A stretch of DNA of 64,000 nucleotides from Clostridioides sp. ES-S-0010-02 (GTDB lineage Bacteria > Bacillota > Clostridia > Peptostreptococcales > Peptostreptococcaceae). The position numbers and the translations under genes were made by a program. Shown piece by piece: positions 32,874-63,110 of this stretch. The notes beneath the pieces are model-generated. The model saw nothing but the letters and a program-made list of their open reading frames with translations, ran no database searches and was not told where the DNA came from. Position 1 is the stretch's first letter. Each line of letters starts with the position of its first letter. The DNA lies in NCBI GenBank assembly GCA_020641055.1, contig CP067345.1, positions 985,317 to 1,049,316 of the forward strand, given 5' to 3'.

Positions 32874-33416
32874 TTAGGACACAACTATGTAGATTACCTT
32901 ACTTTCAACTTCACTTGGATTTCCCCATTTATGTCTCATACCAAAAGGTATTTTTACACTATCACCTTCATTTAATTCAAATATATCATCTTCCAAACTA
33001 AGTTCAACACTTCCTTTAAGTATATAAGCAACTTCGTCTCCAGCATGCCCATTTTTTTCTTTACAGTAAGACTTAGGAGACAAATTCATAATGGCAAATT
33101 CGAATTTATTAAATGGATTATTGGATAACATTTCATATAAAATATTTTCTGATTCTGGAAAAATTACTATTTTTCTAAGATTGTTTCTTACAATTAATTC
33201 TGAATCATCAATAGAAGGAACGAAAAAAGTAATTAATGGTACATTTAAAGCATTTGAAATTGATTTTAAAAAATTTATGGATGGATTTACGCTTCCTTTT
33301 TCTATTTGACTAATTAAAGAAGGTGTAACTTTAATTAATTTAGATAAATCTTTTATACTAATGTTCTGTTTTTTTCTACATAAAGTCAATTTTTTACCTA
33401 TACTTGAATTACTCAT
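32874..33416 (-). CDS. XRE-family regulator with C-terminal cupin sensor
   Basis: 180-residue two-domain regulator. Residues 8-62 form an XRE helix-turn-helix (LCRKKQNISIKDLSKLIKVT, SLISQIEKGSVNPSI). Residues 108-178 form a cupin (HAGDEVAYILKGSVELSLED, GDSVKIPFGMRHKWGNPS). The MerR/PuuR-like architecture senses a small molecule in the cupin. AGGAGG precedes the ATG. It is divergent from serS and shares with it a gap that also contains the conserved 35-bp element, so it may help control the downstream serine-related genes. Confidence 0.88.
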   Translation of the reverse strand: MSNSSIGKKLTLCRKKQNISIKDLSKLIKVTPSLISQIEKGSVNPSINFLKSISNALNVPLITFFVPSIDDSELIVRNNLRKIVIFPESENILYEMLSNNPFNKFEFAIMNLSPKSYCKEKNGHAGDEVAYILKGSVELSLEDDIFELNEGDSVKIPFGMRHKWGNPSEVESKVIYIVVS

Positions 33417-33786
33417 TAAAATCCTCCTATTCTAACATCTGACAAAGAATATATAAAGAATTATATCATAAGGTAAAAAAATTTATATGAAAATTGATAA
33501 TTATATAAGATTGATAAAAAAAAAGTCAAAATAGATAATTGATTGCTAAAATTAGCATAATTATAATGAAAGTAAAAGTAAGATTAATGATGAAAAATTA
33601 AATTATATTAATTTAATTAAATATAATTTGACAATGTGTAAAAAAGTGAGTAAAATATAACTAAATAAAAATAATAGGTTCGGATAAGACAGAAAAAGAT
33701 TTCTTAACCTTAAGCAAATATACTATTATCAAAGTTAACTGAGATTAAGAGATAACATCCAATCTTAAAGTATTGAGGAGGAAAAA
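33417..33786. other. Divergent control region of XRE-cupin and serS genes
   Basis: Contains the 35-bp element at 33511-33545 and a promoter just downstream of it. The rest of the serS leader (about 33575-33786) is AT-rich with a small hairpin potential (AGATTAAGA near 33742 with TCTTAA near 33763). No T-box consensus (AGGGTGG...) was found, so tRNA-sensing control is not supported. Confidence 0.55.
33511..33567 (+). promoter_or_regulatory. Conserved 35-bp element plus promoter, serS copy
   Basis: The element at 33511-33545 has core AAAGTCAAAATAGATAATTG. It matches the copy before ykvI at 32 of 35 positions, all differences being A/T swaps. A promoter TTGATT (33539-33544), 17 bases, TATAAT (33562-33567) overlaps its 3' end, so the element sits in the activator position. 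Confidence 0.75.
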
Positions 33787-35058
33787 ATGCTTGATATAAA
33801 AAGAATAAGAGAAAACTTAGATTGTATAAAAAAAGCAATGGAAAGAAGAGGTGAAAAAGCCTTTAATCTTGATGAAGTAGTTAAGTTAGATGATGAAAGA
33901 AGAAAAATTCTTCAAGAAGTTGAGGTTATGAAAAACGAATTAAATACTGCATCTAAAAATATACCAAATCTTATAAAAGAAGGTAAAGATGTAGAAAATG
34001 AAAAAATTAAGCTAAAAGAGTTATCTGACAAGATTAAAGTTATAGACCAAAACCTTAAAGATGTAGAGGAAAAAATGGAATACTTGTTAATGAGAATTCC
34101 AAATGTACCACATTCAGAAGTACCACAAGGGGAAACCGATGAAGATAATGTTGAGGTGAGAACTTGGGGTAAGACGTCTAATTTTGATTTTGAATCTAAA
34201 GCTCATTGGGAAATAGGGACTGAGTTAGGTATACTTGATTTTGAAACAGCTGGTAAAATAACTGGTTCAAGATTCACTCTTTATAAGGGATTAGGAGCTA
34301 GATTAGAAAGGGCATTATTAAATTTTTATCTAGATACAAATACAACAGTAAATGGATACACAGAAATTATTCCACCATTTATGGCAAATAGAAATAGTTT
34401 TTTGGGTACAGGACAACTACCTAAGTTTGAAGAGGATATGTTCAAAATAGAAGGATTAGATTACTTTTTAATTCCAACATCAGAAGTTCCTTTAACTAAT
34501 ATACATGCTAATGAAATACTTAAATTTGAGCAACTACCAATAAATTATACAGCATATACTCCTTGTTTTAGGTCAGAAGCTGGTTCTGCTGGAAGGGATA
34601 CAAGAGGTTTGGTAAGACAACATCAATTTAATAAAGTAGAAATGGTAAAAATAGTAGCTCCAGAAGAATCTTACAATGAATTAGAAAAATTAACTAATAA
34701 TGCTGAGACTATGCTACAATTATTAAATTTACCATATAGAGTAGTAAAAATATGTACAGGTGACTTAGGATTTACAGCTTCTTTTAAATATGATGTAGAA
34801 GTTTGGATGCCAAGTTATAACAGATATGTTGAAATTTCATCTTGTTCAAACTGTGAAGATTTTCAAGCTAGAAGAGCTGGAATAAGATTTAAAAGAGACA
34901 AAAATTCTAAAGCTGAATATGCACATACATTAAATGGTTCTGGACTGGCTATTGGAAGAAGTGTAGCAGCTATATTGGAAAATTACCAACAAGCAGATGG
35001 CTCTGTAATAGTTCCAGAAGCTTTAAGACCATATATGGGTGTTTCTGTTATTAAATAA
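33787..35058 (+). CDS. serS: Seryl-tRNA synthetase
   Basis: 423-residue class II synthetase. Residues 1-105 are the coiled-coil tRNA arm. Motif 2 is [20 protein letters not shown] and motif 3 is [27 protein letters not shown] marks the serine site. All are intact, so it should be active. Its position next to a two-component system, a transporter and an SHMT-like gene, and its dedicated activator-type promoter, suggest an accessory copy rather than the housekeeping gene; that needs the rest of the genome. GAGGAGG precedes the ATG. Confidence 0.93.
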
Positions 35059-35127
35059 CAATTAAAATATATATTTTTAAATAATAAAGTAAGCTATAAA
35101 TAATTAAAAAATAATAATTAATATAAT

Positions 35128-35196
35128 AATGTGTACAAACTAATGAATATTGATATAGTATAGCTATCATATGAAAGAGTATGTGCACATTTTTAT
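35128..35196 (+). terminator. Terminator after serS
   Basis: AATGTGTACA (35128-35137) pairs with TGTGCACATT (35182-35191), one G-U, with a T-tract after. The loop holds a second small palindrome. Confidence 0.7.
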
Positions 35197-35256
35197 TTGA
35201 TAATTTATTTAAGGGTAAATGAATATAAATAATCTATAAACAGAAAGGGTTTTTTT

Positions 35257-36750
35257 ATGAAGATTCAAAATACTGAGTGGGGATATATTGAATGGAAACA
35301 TACTTATGATGAGAATAACCCAAAACAAGCTATGAATATATATATTGCAGTTACTATGCCAGGTAAAAAACATTTTAATCATGTTCATTATGGTCAAGAA
35401 CAGATGATATATATTTTAGAAGGAGAAGGGTTATATATTATAAATGGAGTTTGGAAGCCATTTTCGCAAGGTATGATTTTTTACATAGAATCTGGTAGCA
35501 CACATGAGTCTATAAATACAGGAGATGGACCAATAAAAGAACTTATTGTTTCAAATAATGTAGGAAATATAGGAGAAAGTGAAGTTATAGAAATCAATCC
35601 TAATAGTGATTTAAAAAAGACCTTAATAAATTATAGTGAAAGTACTTTAAATTTATATGCAGCAGTAGAATCAATTCGTGGTCAGTTTATTGATCCATTT
35701 AAAATTCCACTGATTATATATGATGATTCTTGGAACATAGTTTTAAAAAATCCATATTTTCCATTATTTTGTTTTGAAAAGTGTAACCCTATGAAGTTTC
35801 CTAAAAATTGCGATTGTATGAATCAAAAAAGTAGCAATCAATTCATATGTAAGTATGGGATAACTATATATAATATTCCAATATTATACAAGAACAATAG
35901 TATTGGAGTTATTCGAGGAGGATATGTATTGTTATCTGATTTAAATCTAGATACTACTCATAGTAATTTATATGATATTCCAGAAGGTGCTGCTAGGAGC
36001 ATAAAAAGATTATTAAAGCAAATATCTAAAAACATAATAAATTTTTGTTCATTTAATGATATAAGAAAAGATTTACAAGAGAAAGAACAAACTATTGCAA
36101 GAACATATCACTATGGAGAACAACTTGAAATGAATCTAAAGGTAGCACAGGATACAGTTACTAATTTGAGAATAAATCATCATTTTTTATTTAATACTTT
36201 AAATTCAATGGCAAGTATAGCACTTGATGATGGTTGCTATGATTTATATAGTGCAATAATAGATTTGTCTAAAATGTTTAGATATACAATGAGGTCGGAT
36301 TTAAGGTTTGTAGAATTAGAAGCTGAAATATTATATATTAAAAATTATTTAAATTTGCAAAAGTTACGTTATGGTAATGCATTAAAAGTTGAATATGTTA
36401 TTCCAAAAGAGTTATATAAGATTTCTGTACCTTTCAATTTTATTCAACCTATTGTAGAGAATGCTTTTACACATGGTTTTAGAGATATTGATAAAGAAAA
36501 GCAAATTAAAATAGTTGCAAGTGTAGATTGTCAGTATGCTGTTATAAAAATCTGTAATAATGGAACTATTTTGGATGAAGGTACTATTGAAAAAGTGAAA
36601 ACAGGTATTCATAGTAATAATGGTCATGGTCTATCTTTAATATATACAAAGTTCACATCTGCTTATGGAAGTGATTTTGAGATGAATATTAAATCAAATA
36701 GTAAAGAAGGTACTTATATAACTATTAAAATCCCTCTTGAAAATGAATAA
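35257..36750 (+). CDS. Cupin-PocR-like-LytS/YesM-type histidine kinase
   Basis: 497-residue soluble sensor kinase with no membrane segment. Residues 25-95 are a cupin with metal ligands His42, His44, Glu48 and His83 (HVHYGQE, STHESIN). Residues about 135-240 resemble a PocR-type sensory domain with several cysteines (CFEKC, CDC). After a short coiled coil, a His_kinase (LytS) domain has INHHFLFNTLNSM (His308/309), and an HATPase ends with VENAFTHGFRD. An AraC-type response regulator follows 128 bases later. A cytosolic small-molecule sensor is indicated. The ribosome site is weak (AAAGGG). Confidence 0.85.
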   Translation: MKIQNTEWGYIEWKHTYDENNPKQAMNIYIAVTMPGKKHFNHVHYGQEQMIYILEGEGLYIINGVWKPFSQGMIFYIESGSTHESINTGDGPIKELIVSNNVGNIGESEVIEINPNSDLKKTLINYSESTLNLYAAVESIRGQFIDPFKIPLIIYDDSWNIVLKNPYFPLFCFEKCNPMKFPKNCDCMNQKSSNQFICKYGITIYNIPILYKNNSIGVIRGGYVLLSDLNLDTTHSNLYDIPEGAARSIKRLLKQISKNIINFCSFNDIRKDLQEKEQTIARTYHYGEQLEMNLKVAQDTVTNLRINHHFLFNTLNSMASIALDDGCYDLYSAIIDLSKMFRYTMRSDLRFVELEAEILYIKNYLNLQKLRYGNALKVEYVIPKELYKISVPFNFIQPIVENAFTHGFRDIDKEKQIKIVASVDCQYAVIKICNNGTILDEGTIEKVKTGIHSNNGHGLSLIYTKFTSAYGSDFEMNIKSNSKEGTYITIKIPLENE

Positions 36751-36878
36751 AGAATATGTATAAAACTTAGATAAAATTAATAAGTTTTATCAGTATAAAG
36801 AAATATATTAGATGTTTCTATATTATTTTTTACATCTTACTTTTTTGTACATCATTAAGCTAAAAGGGAGGAATTCTC

Positions 36879-37577
36879 ATGAGAAGAGCACTAATAATAG
36901 ATGATGAAGAAGCTGTTTTAAAAATAATAACACATTTTATAGAGATGAAAGATATGCCAATAGAAATTGTTGGGAGAGCAACTTCTGGTGACGAAGCAGT
37001 AGAAAAGATAATTAGTTTAGAGCCAGATATAGTATTTATAGACATTCAGATGCCGATATATAATGGGTTGGAAGTAATAGAAAGAACATCTCACATATCT
37101 AAAAAAATAAAATTTGTAGTAATAACTGCCTTTGATTATTTTGAATATGCCCAAAAAGCTTTAAGATTAAATGTAAAAGATATACTTCTTAAACCACTAG
37201 ACTTGAAGGAGTTTACTAGGTCTGTAGAAAAGATTATTGGTTATCAGTATACTAGCAATGATTTGTTAAATGAAATACTAGAGTATATAAATTTAAATTA
37301 TAGTGAGGATTTAAAATTAAATGATTGTGCTAAATTATTTTTAACTAATCCATCCAATATATCTAGGATTTTTAAAAGTAATTTGAATACTACCTTTATA
37401 TCATATTTAAATCATATACGAATAGAAAAATCTATAGAATTGCTTGAAAATACAAAAAAAAGTATAAATGAGATTGCGGAAATAGTTGGATATAACAGTC
37501 TAAATAACTTTTATAAGAATTTTAAGATAGAAAAAGGGATGACACCCAAAGTTTATAAATTGAATATTAAAAATTGA
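36879..37577 (+). CDS. AraC/YesN-type response regulator
   Basis: 232-residue regulator. The receiver domain (1-120) has the acidic pocket in IIDDEEAV, the phosphoacceptor Asp55 in FIDIQMP and the conserved Lys in LLKPLDL. The C-terminal AraC helix-turn-helix pair (about 130-232) has LKLNDCAKLFLTNPSNISR and the second motif SINEIAEIVGYNSLNNFYK. It pairs with the preceding LytS-type kinase. The conserved 35-bp element ahead of serS and ykvI, placed just upstream of the -35, is a good candidate binding site. GGGAGG precedes the start. Confidence 0.9.
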   Translation: MRRALIIDDEEAVLKIITHFIEMKDMPIEIVGRATSGDEAVEKIISLEPDIVFIDIQMPIYNGLEVIERTSHISKKIKFVVITAFDYFEYAQKALRLNVKDILLKPLDLKEFTRSVEKIIGYQYTSNDLLNEILEYINLNYSEDLKLNDCAKLFLTNPSNISRIFKSNLNTTFISYLNHIRIEKSIELLENTKKSINEIAEIVGYNSLNNFYKNFKIEKGMTPKVYKLNIKN

Positions 37578-37579
37578 AA

Positions 37580-37636
37580 TTGATAAATAAAAAGTCAATA
37601 TAGATAATTGTTTGAAAATGTCTGGATAAGTATACT
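37580..37636 (+). promoter_or_regulatory. Conserved 35-bp element plus promoter, ykvI copy
   Basis: Element at 37580-37614 (core AAAGTCAATATAGATAATTG), followed by TTGTTT (37608-37613), 17 bases, TATACT (37631-37636). Element-to-minus-10 spacing is identical to the serS copy. Confidence 0.75.
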
Positions 37637-37653
37637 TTAATTAATAACAAAAA

Positions 37654-37667
37654 TTAAAGCGCTTTAA
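37654..37667. promoter_or_regulatory. 14-bp palindrome near the ykvI start site
   Basis: TTAAAGCGCTTTAA is a perfect palindrome about 18 bases after the -10. It resembles a loose CcpA cre-like site but lacks the full consensus, so it could be a site for the XRE-cupin or another repressor. Confidence 0.45.
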
Positions 37668-37862
37668 ACATATTTAATAACATTGAACCTTATAAAAGAT
37701 GTACCTATATATATAAAAAAATATATATAAATAAAAATTAAAAAATATACAAAATAAAAAAAGTGAATTAAATATTATTCCAAAAAGACAGAATATTCAT
37801 TTAAATTCGCTGTAAATTTATATTTGTTAAAGAAGGTAACTTTATAATGGAGGTAAGTTGAT

Positions 37863-38951
37863 ATGTCAGACAAAGTAAATATTAAAAATGTTATCTGTAT
37901 TGCAGGTGCTTATTTAGCAACAGCAATAGGTTCAGGATTTGCGACTGGTCAAGAAATACTCCAATTTTTTGCATCCCAAGGATATATGGGATTGATTGGA
38001 GCATTAATATCGATGGTACTATTCTCATTTCTTGGTGTTGAAGTCATAACAAGGGGGAGAGAGTTAAAACTTAAAGAGCCAACAAGAATTTACACTTTTT
38101 ATTGTGGAAAGATTCTAGGAAAATTTTATGAATGGTTTAGTCCAATATTTTTATTTGGAATTCTGATAGTAATGATTTCAGGTGCTGGTTCAACTTTAAC
38201 TGAATATTATGGAATAAATCCTTATTTAGGAAGGGTATTAATGTCTATTGCTACACTAATCACAGTATCCATGGGGCTTGAAAAATTAGTAAATATACTT
38301 GGGCGCATTGGACCAGTAATAGCAGTATTTACTATTGCAGTTGGATTAATAAGTTTATTTAAGCACTTAGATGGATTACCTGTTGTTGGAGAGGCAATGA
38401 AAAATATTGAAGTTACAAAAGCATCAGGAAGCCCAATAGTTTCAGGTGTAATTTACAATACATTAAATATAATTGTAATGATTGTATTTTTAACAGGTAT
38501 GGGAGCTTCTGTTGAAAATAAAAAAGATGCTTTCTGGGGAGGATTATTAGGTGGTGTAGTTTTTATGACTGCTGGTATAGTTATGTATCTAGCTATGATT
38601 TCAGATATAGGTAACCTGTATATGAAAGAGATACCATCCCTTTATCTAGCAGATAATATATCTCCTATTGTAGGTGTATGTTTCTCAGTTGCACTTATAT
38701 TAGGTATCTATACAACTGCTGTTCCACTTTTATGGTCTGTGACTAATAGAATTGTTGAAGACAAACACCCTAAATTTAAATTAGTTACAACAGTAGTAGC
38801 TATTTTGGCTTGTATTGGTGGCTTTTTACCATTTGGTAAGCTAGTAAATATTTTATATCCATACACAGGTTATATGGGACTTTTAATTTTAGTTTGCATG
38901 GTATATAGGGCAATTACATGTAGAGAAAAATCAACTCAAAGTCAGGAATAA
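37863..38951 (+). CDS. YkvI-family transporter (APC superfamily)
   Basis: 362-residue membrane protein with about ten helices. The start VICIAGAYLATAIGSGFATG, with a glycine-rich unwound TM1, and QEILQFF followed by VEVITRGREL are typical of the YkvI family, related to amino-acid/cation transporters of the LeuT fold. No substrate is established for the family; here an amino acid or its analogue is likely from neighbouring serS and SHMT-like genes. It carries its own copy of the 35-bp element. ATGGAGG precedes the start. Confidence 0.8.
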   Translation: MSDKVNIKNVICIAGAYLATAIGSGFATGQEILQFFASQGYMGLIGALISMVLFSFLGVEVITRGRELKLKEPTRIYTFYCGKILGKFYEWFSPIFLFGILIVMISGAGSTLTEYYGINPYLGRVLMSIATLITVSMGLEKLVNILGRIGPVIAVFTIAVGLISLFKHLDGLPVVGEAMKNIEVTKASGSPIVSGVIYNTLNIIVMIVFLTGMGASVENKKDAFWGGLLGGVVFMTAGIVMYLAMISDIGNLYMKEIPSLYLADNISPIVGVCFSVALILGIYTTAVPLLWSVTNRIVEDKHPKFKLVTTVVAILACIGGFLPFGKLVNILYPYTGYMGLLILVCMVYRAITCREKSTQSQE

Positions 38952-39007
38952 ATATAGTTAGGGTAATTGATAGTTGAGAAAATTTCTTATTGTAATACAA
39001 ATTATAA

Positions 39008-39052
39008 AAAAGTCAAAATAGTTAAATAAATTGCAAATTTTGATAATATAAT
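39008..39052 (+). promoter_or_regulatory. Partial copy of the conserved element before the SHMT-like gene
   Basis: AAAAGTCAAAATAG at 39008-39021 is identical to the core of the serS copy, then diverges (TTAAATAAATTG). A TATAAT follows at 39047-39052, 26 bases from the core versus 28 in the other two copies, with no clear -35. Confidence 0.6.
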
Positions 39053-39131
39053 TAATTAAAATATTATAGTAGAATATAAATAAAAATTAATTAAATTTAT
39101 AAAAATAATTAAATTAAGAAGAGGTGTTATT

Positions 39132-40388
39132 ATGTTAAAAACAACAAGAATTTCAGACCCAGAGTTATACGAAATTGTAGCTGGTGAATTGGTTAGACAA
39201 GAGCATAATATCGAGATGATAGCTTCTGAAAGTACAGCACCAACAGAAGTACTTGAATTAAGTGGATGTGTATTTACAAATAAAACAGAAGAGGGTTATC
39301 CAGGAGCACGTTTCCAAGCAGGTTCTGAAGAAGCAGATAAACTTGAAAATCTAGCAATAAAACGTGCAAAAGAAATATTTGGAGCAGAACATGTAAATGT
39401 ACAGCCTTACTCAGGTTCTACAGCTAACTATTGTGTATATTCAGCAATATTAAAGCCAAATGATACTGTTTTAAGTATGCGTCTTGACCAAGGGGGACAC
39501 TTAACACATGGTAGTACAGTAAACTTCTTACATGATATTTATAAATATGAATTTTATGGTGTAGATTCAAATACTGGTCGTATAGATTATGATGCTCTTG
39601 AAGCGAAGGCAAAAGAGTGTAAACCAAAACTTATAATTGCAGGGGCAAGTTCATATCCAAGATTGATAGATTATGAAAGAATATCAAATGTTGCAAAAGA
39701 AGTAGGAGCTTATTTTATGGTAGATATGGCTCATGTTGCAGGTTTGGTGGCAGCAAAAGTAATACCTAGTCCTGTACCTTATGCAGATTTTGTTTCTTCA
39801 TCTACAACAAAAACTTTCTGTGGACCAAGAAGTGGTATTGTGCTTTGTAAAGCTGAACATGCAAAGAAACTTGATAAAGGTGTTTTCCCAGGAACATTAG
39901 GTTCTATACATCTTAACACAGTTGCAGCGAAAACGTTTTCGCTATTGTATTTAGGGACAGATGAGTTTCGTAAAATAATGGAGCAAGTAGTAGTAAATGC
40001 TAAAACTTTGGCAGCTGAACTTATTTCTCACGGATTTAGTATAGTAAGTGGTGGAACTGATAATCATATAGTAATGGTTGATTTAAGAAGTAAAAATTTG
40101 ACAGGAAAGCAGTTTGAAAAGGCTCTTGAATATGTAGGAATAACGGTTAATAAAAATGTTATACCTGATGACCCACAATCACCATTTGTAACTAGTGGCG
40201 TTCGTATCGGTCTTACATCAATATCTCAAAGAGGTCTTAAAGAAAAAGAAGTTGTGCAAATAGCAGGAATAATGAATAAGGTAGCAGAAAATATTGATAA
40301 TAAAGAAGTATTAGATGAATGTAGGGTAGAAGCTCAGGAACTTATAGCTAAATTCCCATTATATCCAGAAGGATATTTTGAAGATTAA
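39132..40388 (+). CDS. Divergent serine hydroxymethyltransferase-like PLP enzyme
   Basis: 418-residue fold-type I PLP enzyme that aligns along its whole length with GlyA. The PLP lysine is Lys227 in SSTTKTFCGPRSG, and PLP-contact blocks YSGSTANY, GGHLTHGS and DMAHVAGLVAA are kept. Compared from memory with E. coli GlyA, the His before the lysine is Thr, the active-site Tyr in NKYAEGYPG is Thr, RYYGG is RFQAG, and FPGGQGGP is FPGTLGSI. These changes touch catalysis and folate use, so it may be an aldolase on a substituted serine or threonine, not a housekeeping enzyme. AGAGGTG precedes the ATG. Confidence 0.85.
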   Translation: MLKTTRISDPELYEIVAGELVRQEHNIEMIASESTAPTEVLELSGCVFTNKTEEGYPGARFQAGSEEADKLENLAIKRAKEIFGAEHVNVQPYSGSTANYCVYSAILKPNDTVLSMRLDQGGHLTHGSTVNFLHDIYKYEFYGVDSNTGRIDYDALEAKAKECKPKLIIAGASSYPRLIDYERISNVAKEVGAYFMVDMAHVAGLVAAKVIPSPVPYADFVSSSTTKTFCGPRSGIVLCKAEHAKKLDKGVFPGTLGSIHLNTVAAKTFSLLYLGTDEFRKIMEQVVVNAKTLAAELISHGFSIVSGGTDNHIVMVDLRSKNLTGKQFEKALEYVGITVNKNVIPDDPQSPFVTSGVRIGLTSISQRGLKEKEVVQIAGIMNKVAENIDNKEVLDECRVEAQELIAKFPLYPEGYFED

Positions 40389-40744: not shown

Positions 40745-42346
40745 ATGATTGAAAACTACGTTTTGTGTGAAATTGAGGAATTAAAGAGAAAAATACATGA
40801 AAACATTAATGTGAACGATGATGTTATTTGTGGGATTTGTGATAAACTGATTTCGATTTCAAAAGAAAGTAAAGATTGGCAAAGTGTGGCTTTTGGACAT
40901 GTATGGCGTGCCGATTATTATTTCTATGTGGAATCAAATATGAAATGCGTATCAAAAGAGTTGGAGTATGCACAAGAGTATATTAATGAAAAGAATCCAA
41001 GTGAATTATTAGAAAAATTTTATGCACTGTGTAGTTTACTTTCTTTAAATTCATATGATAAACAGTCTGCATTTAGATACACTTTAAAAGCATTGGATGT
41101 TTCTGAAAGATTAGACATCAGACATCGCATTGGTATAAATTATGGGAATATTAGTGCTTATTATTTGGACTATGAATTATATGATGAAGCACTGTTCTAT
41201 TTAGATAAATCAATGGAAGTATTGCGTTCTTTGCCAGATACGAAGCCACGTTTTCTGCGAATGCTGTTAATTAATTTCATTAATATATATTTAAAATTAG
41301 GTAAGCTTGAATTGATGAAATCAACTATTGAAGAATTGAGTTTACTTCCCTTCGAAGAGAAAGATTTAAAAATATATGTTGATTATGCATATTTGCTTTA
41401 TTATGCAGAGATACAGAATCAAGAAAAAAGTTTATATTATCTACAGGAAATGCAGAATGATGGACTTATGACTTTTCCAAATCGTGTTTATCTCATAGAA
41501 TTTTTGATGAATGCATTAGAAGCAATGATATCTATCAAAAACAAAGTAAAATCAAGTGAATTATTACAATCCTTACAAGAGCTAATAAAAGAAGATGAAC
41601 CAGAGCCTTTATTGAAATTATGTAAATTGAATATTAAGTATTCACAGAAATTTGAGACAAAAAAAGAATTATATTACCATTACCACGAGTATTATGATTT
41701 ATATTTAAAAGCACAGAATCAAGTAAATCTATTAAAAGTAGAAGGTTTACGTGCAAAAATTGAATTGAATGACACTTATACTAAGTATACTCAATCAAAA
41801 AAAGTATTAGAAGAATTATATGACCTTGTAAATTATGATGAATTGACTAATGTATACAATCGTTATTATTTTAATATTAAGCAAGATGAAATTCTCAATA
41901 GTAATAGATATACTAATATTGGTCTTGCAATATTTGATATTGATTACTTTAAAGAATACAATGATTATTATGGTCATTTGGAAGGTGATGAAATATTAAA
42001 ACAAGTAGCAAGTGGCTTGAAAGAAAAGGCAAATGAACAAATGGCAGTCTTTCGCTATGGTGGTGATGAATTTGTTTGTCTTAGCTGGGATTTGAATTTT
42101 GAACAAATGGCTGAATATGTTAATCAAGTAAAAGAAGCAATAAAAGAAAAAAGTCTTGAACATATACATTCACGATGTGAAAAAATAATAACATTGTCAA
42201 TTGGATATGGTAATAAGACAGTTTCAACTAAAGTTGATGTACTTAATTTATTTGATGAAGTAGATAAAGCACTATATGATGTAAAGAATAATGGTAGAAA
42301 TAATGCTAAATCAATAATTGCTATGGAAGAGGTGCATAATGAATAA
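40745..42346 (+). CDS. Cytosolic TPR-like diguanylate cyclase 1
   Basis: 533-residue protein with no membrane segment. Residues 1-340 are helical repeats of TPR type (for example GINYGNISAYYLDYELYDEA). Residues 365-530 are a GGDEF domain beginning YDELTNVYNRYYF, with the active-site motif GGDEF at 439-443, so it should make c-di-GMP from two GTP. The inhibitory RxxD I-site normally five residues before GGDEF is absent (the region reads LKEKANEQM), so product inhibition may be lost. Its stop overlaps the next, similar gene. TTTGGAG precedes the ATG. Confidence 0.88.
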   Translation: MIENYVLCEIEELKRKIHENINVNDDVICGICDKLISISKESKDWQSVAFGHVWRADYYFYVESNMKCVSKELEYAQEYINEKNPSELLEKFYALCSLLSLNSYDKQSAFRYTLKALDVSERLDIRHRIGINYGNISAYYLDYELYDEALFYLDKSMEVLRSLPDTKPRFLRMLLINFINIYLKLGKLELMKSTIEELSLLPFEEKDLKIYVDYAYLLYYAEIQNQEKSLYYLQEMQNDGLMTFPNRVYLIEFLMNALEAMISIKNKVKSSELLQSLQELIKEDEPEPLLKLCKLNIKYSQKFETKKELYYHYHEYYDLYLKAQNQVNLLKVEGLRAKIELNDTYTKYTQSKKVLEELYDLVNYDELTNVYNRYYFNIKQDEILNSNRYTNIGLAIFDIDYFKEYNDYYGHLEGDEILKQVASGLKEKANEQMAVFRYGGDEFVCLSWDLNFEQMAEYVNQVKEAIKEKSLEHIHSRCEKIITLSIGYGNKTVSTKVDVLNLFDEVDKALYDVKNNGRNNAKSIIAMEEVHNE

Positions 42347-43928
42347 CTATAATGTAGCACTTGAACAAATTCAATTGCTGATTGATCGAATTCAGTGTCG
42401 TTTTGAGCATAATTCTAGGTTTAATAAACACGATTGTGATAGGTTACTAATGATATCAGAACAGTTAAACTACTTCTATGGACAAGCATTGGCTCATGTG
42501 TATTTGGCACAATATTTTCAAATGAAATGGGATGTAGATGCTTATAATTTTCATTCAGAGAAGGCAAGAGAAATTGCTGAGAATAAAAATTATTTTGATG
42601 TTTTAATTGAATATTTTAAAATAGAGGGCTTGCGAAATGTTACTATTTGTGACGAAATAGCAGCTCTTACTATATATTTAGAAGGAATCCAAATTGCTTA
42701 TAAAATTAAAGATAAAAAATCATGTGCTATTTTCTATAACAATATTGCTGATATATTTTACACAAGTGGTGTATATAAAATTGCAGAGCAATTCTATACA
42801 AAAGCATTAGATGTTATAAAAGATATTCCTATAAAAAGTGTGCTTTTTTATTACAAGTCTATACTTGTGAATCTATTACACCTTTCTTGTGTTCAAGGAG
42901 AATTAGATAAAGCCCTGAAGTATCATGAAAAATGTTTAAGAGTAAAATGTGAAGTTGGCATTTTACCTTTATTATTTATGGAAGGAGAAATACGTCTTTT
43001 ATTATTAGAAAATAAGGAAACAGAAGCGTTACATAAAATAGATAGTTTGATAAATAAGTTGATTAAAAATAAGGAAGAAGCGTTTTTACTGAAATCCATT
43101 TATTTATATTTAATGGAATTTTTGCTTTTGTTGAAAAGAGAAGAAGATGCAGCATGGTGCTTAAACCAATTAGACACATTGTATAAAAATACGAATCAAA
43201 ATATAATGATACAAATTCAAAAATTACATGTTCAATATTCAATTCTATTTGGGCATGAAACTGATGAACTTTATGAAACTTTTTATGAAACCATATTAAA
43301 AGGAGAAATGGACAGTAAGATATCAATGGGCGAAAGCTTCAAAAGTCTTATTTCTCTCTATGAAAGAGAAAAAGAACAGAATCTTATGTTGGAAAAGCAA
43401 GTTAGTCTACAAACAGTAGCAGATATAGATGAACTTACAAAAATTTATAATCGAAGATACTGTAGTAAACTTATAAGTAAATTAATCCAAGATGATGAGG
43501 TTTTATCCATTGGATATGTTATGGTTGATATCGATTTTTTCAAAGAATATAATGATTACTATGGTCATTTAAAAGGTGATGAGGCAATAAAAGAAGTTAC
43601 TACTTTATTAAAGAAGAACTTACCAAACAATGCTTTTGCTGCACGATATGGAGGAGATGAATTCACCTGTATATTTGTTGATAGAAGTGATGATGAAATT
43701 ATTACATTTGTTGAATCAGTTCAAAAAGAGCTGAGAGACAAAAATATTGTACATTTAAAAAGTAAAAATTCCAAACAGCTCACTTTATCTTTTGGGATAT
43801 ATAATGAGATACATATGCATGGTTGTGATGAATTAACTCTTATTAAAAATGCTGATTTAGCCTTATACCAATCCAAAAATAAGGGAAGAAATGTATATAC
43901 AATTTATAAACAAAGGAGCCAATCGTAA
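42339..43928 (+). CDS. Cytosolic TPR-like diguanylate cyclase 2
   Basis: 529-residue paralogue of the preceding protein, with N-terminal TPR-like repeats (FYNNIADIFYTSGVYKIAEQ) and a C-terminal GGDEF domain (DIDELTKIYNRRYC; GGDEF at 438-442). It too lacks an RxxD I-site. ATG 42339 follows GAAGAGGTG and overlaps the upstream gene by eight bases; an earlier in-frame start at 42318 lacks a site. The stop overlaps the EAL gene (TAATG). Tandem paralogues with different sensor halves suggest two ligands or a heterodimer. Confidence 0.87.
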   Translation: MNNYNVALEQIQLLIDRIQCRFEHNSRFNKHDCDRLLMISEQLNYFYGQALAHVYLAQYFQMKWDVDAYNFHSEKAREIAENKNYFDVLIEYFKIEGLRNVTICDEIAALTIYLEGIQIAYKIKDKKSCAIFYNNIADIFYTSGVYKIAEQFYTKALDVIKDIPIKSVLFYYKSILVNLLHLSCVQGELDKALKYHEKCLRVKCEVGILPLLFMEGEIRLLLLENKETEALHKIDSLINKLIKNKEEAFLLKSIYLYLMEFLLLLKREEDAAWCLNQLDTLYKNTNQNIMIQIQKLHVQYSILFGHETDELYETFYETILKGEMDSKISMGESFKSLISLYEREKEQNLMLEKQVSLQTVADIDELTKIYNRRYCSKLISKLIQDDEVLSIGYVMVDIDFFKEYNDYYGHLKGDEAIKEVTTLLKKNLPNNAFAARYGGDEFTCIFVDRSDDEIITFVESVQKELRDKNIVHLKSKNSKQLTLSFGIYNEIHMHGCDELTLIKNADLALYQSKNKGRNVYTIYKQRSQS

Positions 43929-45217
43929 TGGAAACGGAAAATAATAGCACCTTAAAGCGTGATATGTATGATACTTCATATATTTTGGAAAAATATTGTA
44001 AGATAAAAGGTAGTGATGAAAGATATGCTTTAATACACTTGAACATTAAAAATTTTCGCTATTTTAATACAAAGTATGGAAGTAAAGCAGGTGATGAAAT
44101 CCTGACATTGGTTTTTCAAAAAATAACCACATTTTTAGAAGAAAGGGAGTACGCTGCATATTTATATGCGGATAACTTTGCTTTTTTAGTAAGGTGTGAT
44201 GATTCTAACTATCTTATATATGAACGATTGATACCACTAATTGACATATTATATCGTATAGATGATGAGCGGATTTATAGAAATCTTTTTATGTCTATGG
44301 GTATTTATGTGATTATTAACCCAGAAGTCTCATTTTATGATGCACTAAATTATGCGAATTTGTGTAGGAAAGAAAGTGAAGCTTTACTTAATAGAAGTTC
44401 TTGTATAGAACTTTATGGTGATTCTTTTTATAATAGTTATATGGACCGTATGAAACTGGAAATAGAGACAGCAGATGCATATAAAGGTTATGAATTTGTC
44501 ACGTACTTACAGCCCAAAATCAGTCTAATAAATGGAAAGGTTATAGGTGCAGAGGCATTACTTCGTTGGTTTGATAAAGATGGAAACAGCATCCCATTAT
44601 ATAAATTTCTGCCTATTTTAAACCAAAATGGCTACATTAAATTAATTGATATTGATACTTTTGAACAAATGTGTCAGTACTTGGATACAAGAATAAAAAA
44701 CAATCAGAAAGTTGTGCCAATTAGTTTTAATATTTCAAAGTCACATTTTTATGACCCAGGGATTGTTCAAAATTACATTGATGTGTTTGAAAAATATGAT
44801 ATTCCGAAGCACTATATTGAAATTGAATTTATGGAATCAATTTCTTTAAATGATACTGAACGTTTAAAAAAAGTAGTATCTGATTTCAAAGAATATGGGT
44901 TTACATGTTCACTAGATGATTTTGGAGATGGTTATTCTTCTTTTAATGTATTACTTAATGCTCATTTTGATATTATCAAGATGGACCGTCAGTTTTTTTT
45001 AAATAACTTAAATGGCAATAGTAGTTTAGTAATAAAGACTATTATAGATTTAATTCATTCTTTAAATATGAAAGTAATTGCTGAAGGCGTAGAATCTAAA
45101 GAACATATAGAGTCTTTAAAAGAGTATAGATGTGATATGGTTCAAGGTTATTATTATTATAAACCTATGTCAATTGATTCATTTAATATGATATTGGATG
45201 TGCAGGATGATTGTTAG
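43928..45217 (+). CDS. Degenerate-GGDEF/EAL c-di-GMP phosphodiesterase
   Basis: 429-residue soluble protein. The N-terminal half is a GGDEF fold whose motif has decayed to ADNFAF, so it is not a cyclase; it may bind GTP as a regulator. The EAL domain (about 175-429) keeps EALLRW (Glu209), the Asn in SFNISKSHF, Glu in EIEFMES, the DDFGDG pair, Lys in IIKMDRQFF, Glu in AEGVES and Gln in VQGYYY. All residues for metal binding and c-di-GMP hydrolysis are present. It is coupled to two cyclases and followed after 36 bases by oppA. Confidence 0.9.
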   Translation: METENNSTLKRDMYDTSYILEKYCKIKGSDERYALIHLNIKNFRYFNTKYGSKAGDEILTLVFQKITTFLEEREYAAYLYADNFAFLVRCDDSNYLIYERLIPLIDILYRIDDERIYRNLFMSMGIYVIINPEVSFYDALNYANLCRKESEALLNRSSCIELYGDSFYNSYMDRMKLEIETADAYKGYEFVTYLQPKISLINGKVIGAEALLRWFDKDGNSIPLYKFLPILNQNGYIKLIDIDTFEQMCQYLDTRIKNNQKVVPISFNISKSHFYDPGIVQNYIDVFEKYDIPKHYIEIEFMESISLNDTERLKKVVSDFKEYGFTCSLDDFGDGYSSFNVLLNAHFDIIKMDRQFFLNNLNGNSSLVIKTIIDLIHSLNMKVIAEGVESKEHIESLKEYRCDMVQGYYYYKPMSIDSFNMILDVQDDC

Positions 45218-59628: not shown

Positions 59629-59684
59629 GGATATATAACTGTATTTAATTTGAATATAATAATTTTTAATTATTTTTATAAAAA

Positions 59685-59794
59685 AATTATAGAGACGTTG
59701 AAGTATATCCTATTACTGGGCACCTTATGGGTATACAGAGTCAATGGTGCAACCGGCTATGAATATAAATTTTATTTATTTCATAGCTTTTTTT
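59685..59794 (+). promoter_or_regulatory. Class II c-di-GMP riboswitch with terminator (on-type)
   Basis: The aptamer core shows GGGCAC (59719-59724) and GGTGCAACCGGCTATG, as in the C. acetobutylicum class II aptamer. P1 forms between TTATAG (59687-59692) and CTATGAA (59757-59763). The same CTATGAA is the left arm of a terminator (GCTATGAA 59756-59763 with TTCATAGC 59780-59787, then T7). Ligand-stabilised P1 therefore blocks the terminator, so c-di-GMP should turn the adhesin on. This agrees with published work on the C. difficile CD2831 locus. Confidence 0.93.
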
Positions 59795-62958: not shown

Positions 62959-62974
62959 ATAAATATAAAATTAA

Positions 62975-63110
62975 ACGAGGCAAAACTAGGGAAACCTAGT
63001 CACGCAAAGCTATAGGGGCTAAAGTTTAAATAAACTACGCCAGCCAGTTGCCGAAAAGAGTAAAAATTTCTTTTTGTATATACAAAGATACTCTTGGGTA
63101 TCTTTTTTAT
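62975..63110 (+). promoter_or_regulatory. Class I c-di-GMP (GEMM-I) riboswitch with terminator (off-type)
   Basis: The aptamer runs from GAGGCAAAACTAGGGAAACC to CAGCCAGTTGCCG (about 62976-63053) and keeps TCACGCAAAGC and GGGGCTAAAG, matching GEMM-I. Terminator arms are AAAGATAC (63084-63091) and GTATCTTT (63098-63105) plus T-tract. AAGAGTA (63056-63062) can pair with TACTCTT (63089-63095) and so act as an antiterminator when no ligand is bound. Ligand should favour termination and switch the protease off, as published for zmpI. Confidence 0.92.

Follow-up and report, generated by a model that had tools for sequence, protein, structure and literature searches.

The locus and its gene complement

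The stretch analyzed here, hereafter the window, comprises 64,000 nucleotides (positions 985317-1049316) of the genome of Clostridioides sp. ES-S-0010-02, a single contig of 4,259,110 bases. It carries six genes encoding an XRE-cupin regulator, a second seryl-tRNA synthetase (SerRS2, gene serS2), a soluble histidine kinase, a response regulator, a transporter and a divergent serine hydroxymethyltransferase (SHMT2), together with three copies of a short DNA site (Table 1). All six genes are present at the coordinates given, and all except the transporter were assigned to families with Pfam and NCBIfam. The identities proposed for these genes in a first-pass annotation, made from the DNA letters alone, were thus confirmed, except that the name YkvI for the transporter found no Pfam or NCBIfam hit. 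That this protein is a transporter is supported by its AlphaFold model (mean pLDDT 90), in which the first helix is broken, as is usual in LeuT-fold carriers. The first PDB match of the model is the Na+/alanine symporter AgcS with alanine bound (TM 0.71, 17% identity), and further matches are CodB, Nramp and AdiC of the same superfamily.

Table 1. Genes and shared DNA sites of the locus (window coordinates)
Feature	Position	Strand	Assignment and remarks
XRE-cupin regulator	32874..33416	-	Pfam/NCBIfam; divergent from serS2
Site before serS2	33525..33559	+	core GTCAAAATAGATAA (33525-33538); weaker second half-site at +21 (33546-33559, 8/14 letters)
serS2, second seryl-tRNA synthetase	33787..35058	+	serS equivalog, 558 bits vs cut-off 302
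Soluble LytS-type histidine kinase (cupin-PocR-His_kinase-HATPase)	35257..36750	+	Pfam/NCBIfam
Response regulator, receiver and AraC-type helix-turn-helix	36879..37577	+	Pfam/NCBIfam
Site before transporter gene	37594..37607	+	core GTCAATATAGATAA; no clear second half-site at +21
YkvI-type transporter	37863..38951	+	structure model; predicted LeuT-like fold, first PDB match AgcS
Site before SHMT2	39012..39046	+	core GTCAAAATAGTTAA (39012-39025); second half-site at +21 GCAAATTTTGATAA (39033-39046)
SHMT2, alpha-methylserine-hydroxymethyltransferase-like	39132..40388	+	T52, Q62 and T226 for E. coli Y55, Y65 and H228

As the first-pass annotation had supposed, neither the serS nor the SHMT gene of the locus is the only one of its kind. 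The genome holds two serS genes, whose products share 82% identity, and two full SHMT genes (49% identity between SHMT2 and the ordinary enzyme) besides one weak family match. The neighbourhood, whose conservation that annotation had proposed to check, is kept in all eight genomes of the genus with some gene losses, in the order amidohydrolase, serS2, kinase, regulator, (transporter), SHMT2; in one genome (G005) the locus is divided between two contigs. The XRE-cupin gene is present in 5/8 genomes and the transporter gene in 7/8, having been lost from G008. A pair encoding an M20 amidohydrolase and an AbgT-type transporter has been inserted or lost 5' of SHMT2, and is found there in five of the eight (L036, L037, L039, L040, L042). 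Wherever the pair is present the third site precedes it, so that the M20, AbgT and SHMT2 genes look like one unit. Named relatives of the kinase with 88-91% identity lie on contigs of Clostridioides difficile.

A DNA site shared by three promoters

The sequence AAAAGTCAAWATAGWTAA is common to the upstream regions of serS2, the transporter gene and SHMT2, so that the regulated promoter attributed to serS2 at first pass is supported by a site that two further promoters in the locus also carry. The 4.26-Mb genome contains the 14-bp core in perfect form exactly three times, always in the locus and always inside the 18-mer; from base composition, the chance expectation for the whole genome is 1.15 copies of the core and 0.018 of the 18-mer. 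Among the matches listed, perfect 18-mers number three each in G004-G007 and G009 and two in G008, all at the locus, and all three sites are also present at the locus of G010 (L038). A whole-genome search with the core found no perfect site before the kinase or the regulator gene in Clostridioides. No terminator-like site was found between these two genes and the serS2 promoter, and they may be transcribed by read-through from it. The second half-site before serS2 ends two bases 5' of a TATAAT box (33562-33567). On the other strand, a promoter-like site of the XRE-cupin gene (33529-33500) has its first hexamer overlapping the serS2 site, and a regulator bound there could therefore also silence this divergent gene.

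The site was also found in other genera, in 21 of 58 named loci, and in two genomes of one such genus (L047, L048) a perfect copy precedes the gene for the kinase. For these counts, as for the repeat and linkage counts below, the four named C. difficile contigs (L105-L108) were excluded. When up to two mismatches were allowed, the site preceded module genes (kinase, SHMT2, AgcS, D-serine ammonia-lyase and M20) in 26/121 upstream regions, compared with 9/312 other upstream regions (p 3e-9, a value somewhat flattered by the choice of the core after looser hits were known). The corresponding counts were 4/121 and 0/312 for the perfect site, and 22/121 and 8/312 in a stricter first scan that tolerated up to four mismatches out of 18. 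Over 29 sites, the core tends to be repeated 21 bp downstream, with a mean of 7.66 matching letters out of 14 compared with 5.35 (standard deviation 0.46) at other offsets. Such a spacing is expected for an AraC-type dimer bound on one face of the helix. Taken with the conserved gene order, the shared site makes a strong case, built on sequence comparison, that the six genes form one regulon.

Further 3' of SHMT2 lies a gene for a GGDEF protein (Pfam), followed by two frames that resemble GGDEF and GGDEF-EAL proteins by eye (span 40745-45217); no perfect copy of the site precedes them in the whole-genome core search. A cyclic di-GMP-II and a cyclic di-GMP-I riboswitch are located at 59682-59767 and 62969-63055, 3 kb apart.

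Related modules and the proteins of the locus

The sensor combines a PF06580 His_kinase domain and a HATPase domain with a paired response regulator, as in kinases of the LytS/YesM type. Its structure model (mean pLDDT 85, pTM 0.61) is confident for the cupin and kinase portions over most of their length, and its matches in PDB are cupins and kinase domains. H42, H44, Q49 and H83 of the cupin, a set as in metal-binding cupins, do not vary among 42 kinases, and neither does H309. In the PocR region, C172, C176 and C198 are kept in 41, 41 and 42 of the 42 sequences. The cysteines C172, C176, C185 and C198 of the PocR part (residues 172-198) might form a metal or iron-sulphur site. The pair recalls YesM/LytS kinases and YesN-type AraC regulators in its PF06580 kinase and its receiver joined to an AraC helix-turn-helix, and its sites tend to a direct repeat spaced by 21 bp. 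It differs from them in having a soluble kinase, whose sensor part consists of a cupin and a PocR domain, and in counting an aminoacyl-tRNA synthetase among the genes of its regulon.

When the kinase alignment was run against a collection of genomes from 84,980 species, 72 loci were recovered, of which 65 (L105-L169) were annotated, the seven weakest (L170-L176) being outside this set. The linkage count also excluded two loci without a member of the kinase cluster, which left 59 loci, each read within 4.5 kb of the kinase. The regulator was found at 54 of these, SHMT2 at 40, AgcS at 27 and D-serine ammonia-lyase at 18; M20 (12), DUF3100 (10) and formate-tetrahydrofolate (THF) ligase (5) were less frequent. 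The lyase representative scores over cut-off with two equivalog models of NCBIfam. Typical gene orders are AgcS-SHMT2-kinase-regulator-lyase and kinase-regulator-SHMT2-M20-DUF3100. These linkages of the kinase and regulator are found in Clostridia. The M20 and DUF3100 pair near the kinase in some relatives can be compared with the M20 and AbgT pair found within the genus.

SHMT2 departs from the housekeeping GlyA enzyme in its active site. In all 55 SHMT2-type rows of the alignment, some of which are the same gene from two records of one genome, the residue at E. coli Y55 is T, that at Y65 is Q (40 rows) or H (15 rows), and that at H228 is T or S, with K229, E57 and R363 kept. The ordinary SHMT of the genome has Y, Y and H at the three positions, and the enzyme of the window T, Q and T. 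As references for alpha-methylserine hydroxymethyltransferase (mSHMT, EC 2.1.2.7) we used two plasmid enzymes of TRIS degraders, which have T, H and T, so that T52 and T226 of the window enzyme match the references. These enzymes are called mSHMT by their authors and described as most similar to confirmed mSHMTs (PMC10848231). The same study reports that E. coli carrying a cluster with mSHMT and D-serine dehydratase degrades 2-hydroxymethylserine (PMC10848231). For SHMT itself, the Y55T change is reported to have raised the acceptance of D-serine and so widened the donor range (PMC4761611). In a tree built without 16 near-duplicate rows, the references group with alpha-proteobacterial SHMTs (100/98) and the clostridial SHMT2 enzymes form a branch apart (100/100). 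Since the two lie on separate branches, the mSHMT-type positions seem to have changed twice, that is, by convergence. One SHMT2-type gene was found on a 2.6-Mb record of Acetoanaerobium noterae labelled as a plasmid (L179, NZ_CP154629.1), a size that suggests a mislabelled chromosome.

The TRIS-degradation gene cluster II of the Pseudomonas hunanensis Teo1 plasmid (CP131128.1), which encodes mSHMT, DsdA, FolD, PurU and DsdX, is one of the closest known systems. Its SHMT homologue likewise has T at both Y55 and H228, and the gene is linked there to a D-serine dehydratase and a transporter. The adjoining regulator is annotated as GltC (LysR-type), the SHMT of the cluster belongs to another branch and no SerRS was seen among the 12 genes read, whereas Clostridioides lacks DsdA. 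Because the lyase linkage of the clostridial modules mirrors the pairing in the TRIS cluster, SHMT2 is likely to convert an alpha-substituted serine and THF into a D-amino acid and methylene-THF.

SerRS2 is a full-length bacterial SerRS with an N-terminal arm and a class II core. The ordinary serS carries a T-box leader (143 bits), in contrast to serS2, which carries the shared site and no T-box. No T-box or other RNA leader reached the gathering score before serS2 in the window (hits at 32.6-41 kb were at chance level, E up to 5), nor was any such leader found at two other loci of the genus and three second-copy loci (L037, L042, L087-L089). In a tree of 32 SerRS proteins, a type-2 group of 14 rows (100/99) unites the SerRS2 of the genus with the second copies of three genomes (G057, G058, G049) and the only SerRS found in three others (G013, G015, G065). 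Eight positions carry a letter that is fixed in 14/14 type-2 rows and found in none of the 18 type-1 rows; several of these letters are also present in the SerRS of Aquifex, and for this reason we make no claim of an active-site change marking resistance. No D-serine ammonia-lyase scored over cut-off in any of the 14 genomes whose SerRS falls in the type-2 group of the tree; the lyase is rare in the family (2/17 genomes), so this mutual exclusion is weak. A SerRS beside the lyase (L111) and another near the module (L134) were not counted as support, because each is the only SerRS found in its genome (E up to 1e-30) and is 37-39% identical. In some genomes of the family, a very different second SerRS (38-40% identity) accompanies the usual one: G035 (C1:2196649), G036 (C25:64697) and G020-G022.

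Relatives of the XRE-cupin regulator were sought at an identity of at least 38%. Of 21 matches, 18 neighbourhoods were read, the others being those of G004, G006 and the second match of G066. Enzymes of the D-serine or D-alanine type were found in seven, SerRS in four, SHMT2 in four, a GntP permease in one and none of these in two. The genomes had been selected for SerRS2, SHMT2 or the kinase, so that the SerRS and SHMT2 neighbours are partly there by choice, which does not apply to the D-amino-acid enzymes. In G057, G058 and G049 the best XRE-cupin match of the genome adjoins the second SerRS copy, and in G065, G066, G067 and G070 it adjoins SHMT2 instead. The regulator gene is divergent from D-serine ammonia-lyase in G034 and G035, from alanine racemase in one relative, and from genes for D-ser_dehydrat-domain proteins at four loci, identified by Pfam scan (L254, L259) or by position and size (L255, L260). 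The best model for the latter proteins is 3-hydroxy-D-aspartate aldolase, below cut-off. The genome under study has its own XRE-cupin paralogue (54%, C1:2488510-2489046, L256), divergent from a gene for a GntP-family permease that is followed by a kinase with a solute-binding domain and a sigma-54 activator. In G010 (L261) no permease-sized frame lies between the XRE-cupin gene and a frame of 664 amino acids. A common operator was not apparent, as no 10-letter word in the intergenic regions scored better than in shuffled sequence.

A proposed D-serine-type regulon and its alternatives

We propose, with moderate confidence, that a two-component system here governs a regulon directed at D-serine or at an alpha-substituted serine such as 2-hydroxymethylserine or alpha-methylserine. 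The compound would bind the soluble cupin-PocR kinase inside the cell, and the phosphorylated AraC-type regulator would bind the site and switch on the three units. The transporter would import the amino acid, and SHMT2, with its mSHMT-like active site, would split the alpha-substituted serine into a D-amino acid and methylene-THF, or act in reverse. In a number of other Clostridia, D-serine ammonia-lyase would then deaminate D-serine. Clostridioides, which is without the lyase, would respond to the compound by making the second SerRS, the simplest purpose being to sustain the charging of tRNA-Ser, and the XRE-cupin protein would act as a second, local regulator on the same theme. We infer the ligand, the binding of the regulator to its site, the reaction of SHMT2, the direction of transport and the tolerance role of SerRS2 from comparisons of this kind.

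The first-pass annotation had proposed a candidate response system for a serine analogue, and had pointed to spare SerRS copies as self-resistance to seryl-type inhibitors. Its idea of one co-regulated system stands, given the shared site, the conserved linkage and the divergent SHMT. The comparative evidence points to D-serine or alpha-substituted serines, with genes linked to catabolism (D-serine ammonia-lyase and AgcS), rather than to an antibiotic. Self-resistance to an antibiotic, a less likely role, so far finds no sequence support here. Duplicated aminoacyl-tRNA synthetases are known to serve as inhibitor-tolerant copies, for example in albomycin producers, and the locus resembles these cases in having a second full SerRS under its own control. 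It would accordingly be conceivable that SerRS2 bypasses a SerRS inhibitor released by gut neighbours, which the transporter and SHMT2 would remove. A regulated spare SerRS beside genes for import and modification, in all eight genomes of the genus, would suit this explanation. We nevertheless consider it unlikely, since at the loci seen outside the genus the kinase family, the site and SHMT2 accompany the lyase and AgcS and not a type-2 SerRS, and no resistance-specific residue was found. No biosynthetic cluster of the kind expected in a producer was seen in the stretch examined (28.5-45.2 kb of the window), and partners of the D-serine type stand there instead.

An ordinary use of L-serine and glycine in one-carbon metabolism, with SHMT2 as a second glyA and SerRS2 balancing tRNA charging as serine pools shift, is about equally improbable. 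The catalytic and cofactor residues of SHMT2 are kept and formate-THF ligase occurs at 5/59 kinase loci, which would fit such a role, but the three active-site replacements in 55/55 rows, at positions kept in the ordinary SHMT of the same genome, and the linkage to D-serine ammonia-lyase argue against it. Slightly less probable again is a system for D-alanine as a cell-wall or spore-germination amino acid, in which SHMT2 would make or break alpha-methylserine and the transporter would move D- or L-alanine. This explanation draws on the alanine-bound AgcS match and on the XRE-cupin relative beside an alanine racemase gene. It also draws on a transporter paralogue in the same genome (65%, C1:388740-389798, L249), which is separated by about 3 kb from a gene for alanine racemase and adjoins a split transketolase. 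It leaves the second SerRS and the lyase of the relatives unexplained, and the fold match covers a whole superfamily, so that the fold does not tell the substrate.

Several observations weigh against the D-serine-type regulon that we favour. The lyase of a dsdXA-type D-serine catabolic operon is over cut-off in 0/8 Clostridioides genomes, where only weak matches occur, unlike the 18/59 related kinase loci. SHMT2 and the lyase stand together at only 14 of the 40 SHMT2-bearing loci, and their common product is therefore not necessarily D-serine. At position 65 the enzyme of the window carries Q, where the mSHMT references have H; it is thus named mSHMT-like and is not counted as a member of that class. 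Linkage of the kinase to SerRS2 was seen only within the genus, and G057, G058, G049 and G015 carry a type-2 SerRS without an SHMT2-type enzyme. As for the site, the response regulator, rather than the XRE-cupin or another protein, is its presumed binder. The second half-site, clear before SHMT2 and weak before serS2, is not evident before the transporter gene, and the next best offset, +28, is also above average (6.79/14 letters). Loose matches are not enriched genome-wide, since reversed control patterns scored more: when one mismatch was allowed, 39 of 42 core matches in the genome were one-mismatch sites elsewhere and represent background (79 in the reversed control), and with up to two mismatches the 18-mer gave 24 matches, compared with 44.

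Together with its XRE-cupin neighbours, SerRS2 appears to belong to the D-amino-acid theme, most simply as a tolerance copy. A more specific version can be put forward only tentatively. In it, a bacterium without the D-serine lyase would use a two-component system to induce a second SerRS able to remain accurate or active despite D-serine or an alpha-substituted serine. This would amount to an inducible tolerance beside the T-box-controlled SerRS, with an independently evolved clostridial mSHMT-like enzyme as partner. Among the open-licence literature matches listed we found no report of this system, which is not proof of its absence.

With this proposal, a regulon recurring in many Clostridia gains a defined DNA site and a class of ligands that can be tested. 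The proposal also predicts that alpha-methylserine-type hydroxymethyltransferases arose by convergence in a clostridial branch, and suggests why Clostridioides keeps a second seryl-tRNA synthetase. If SerRS2 does tolerate D-serine or its analogues better than the ordinary SerRS1, the translation machinery itself would serve as a regulated defence against amino-acid mimics.

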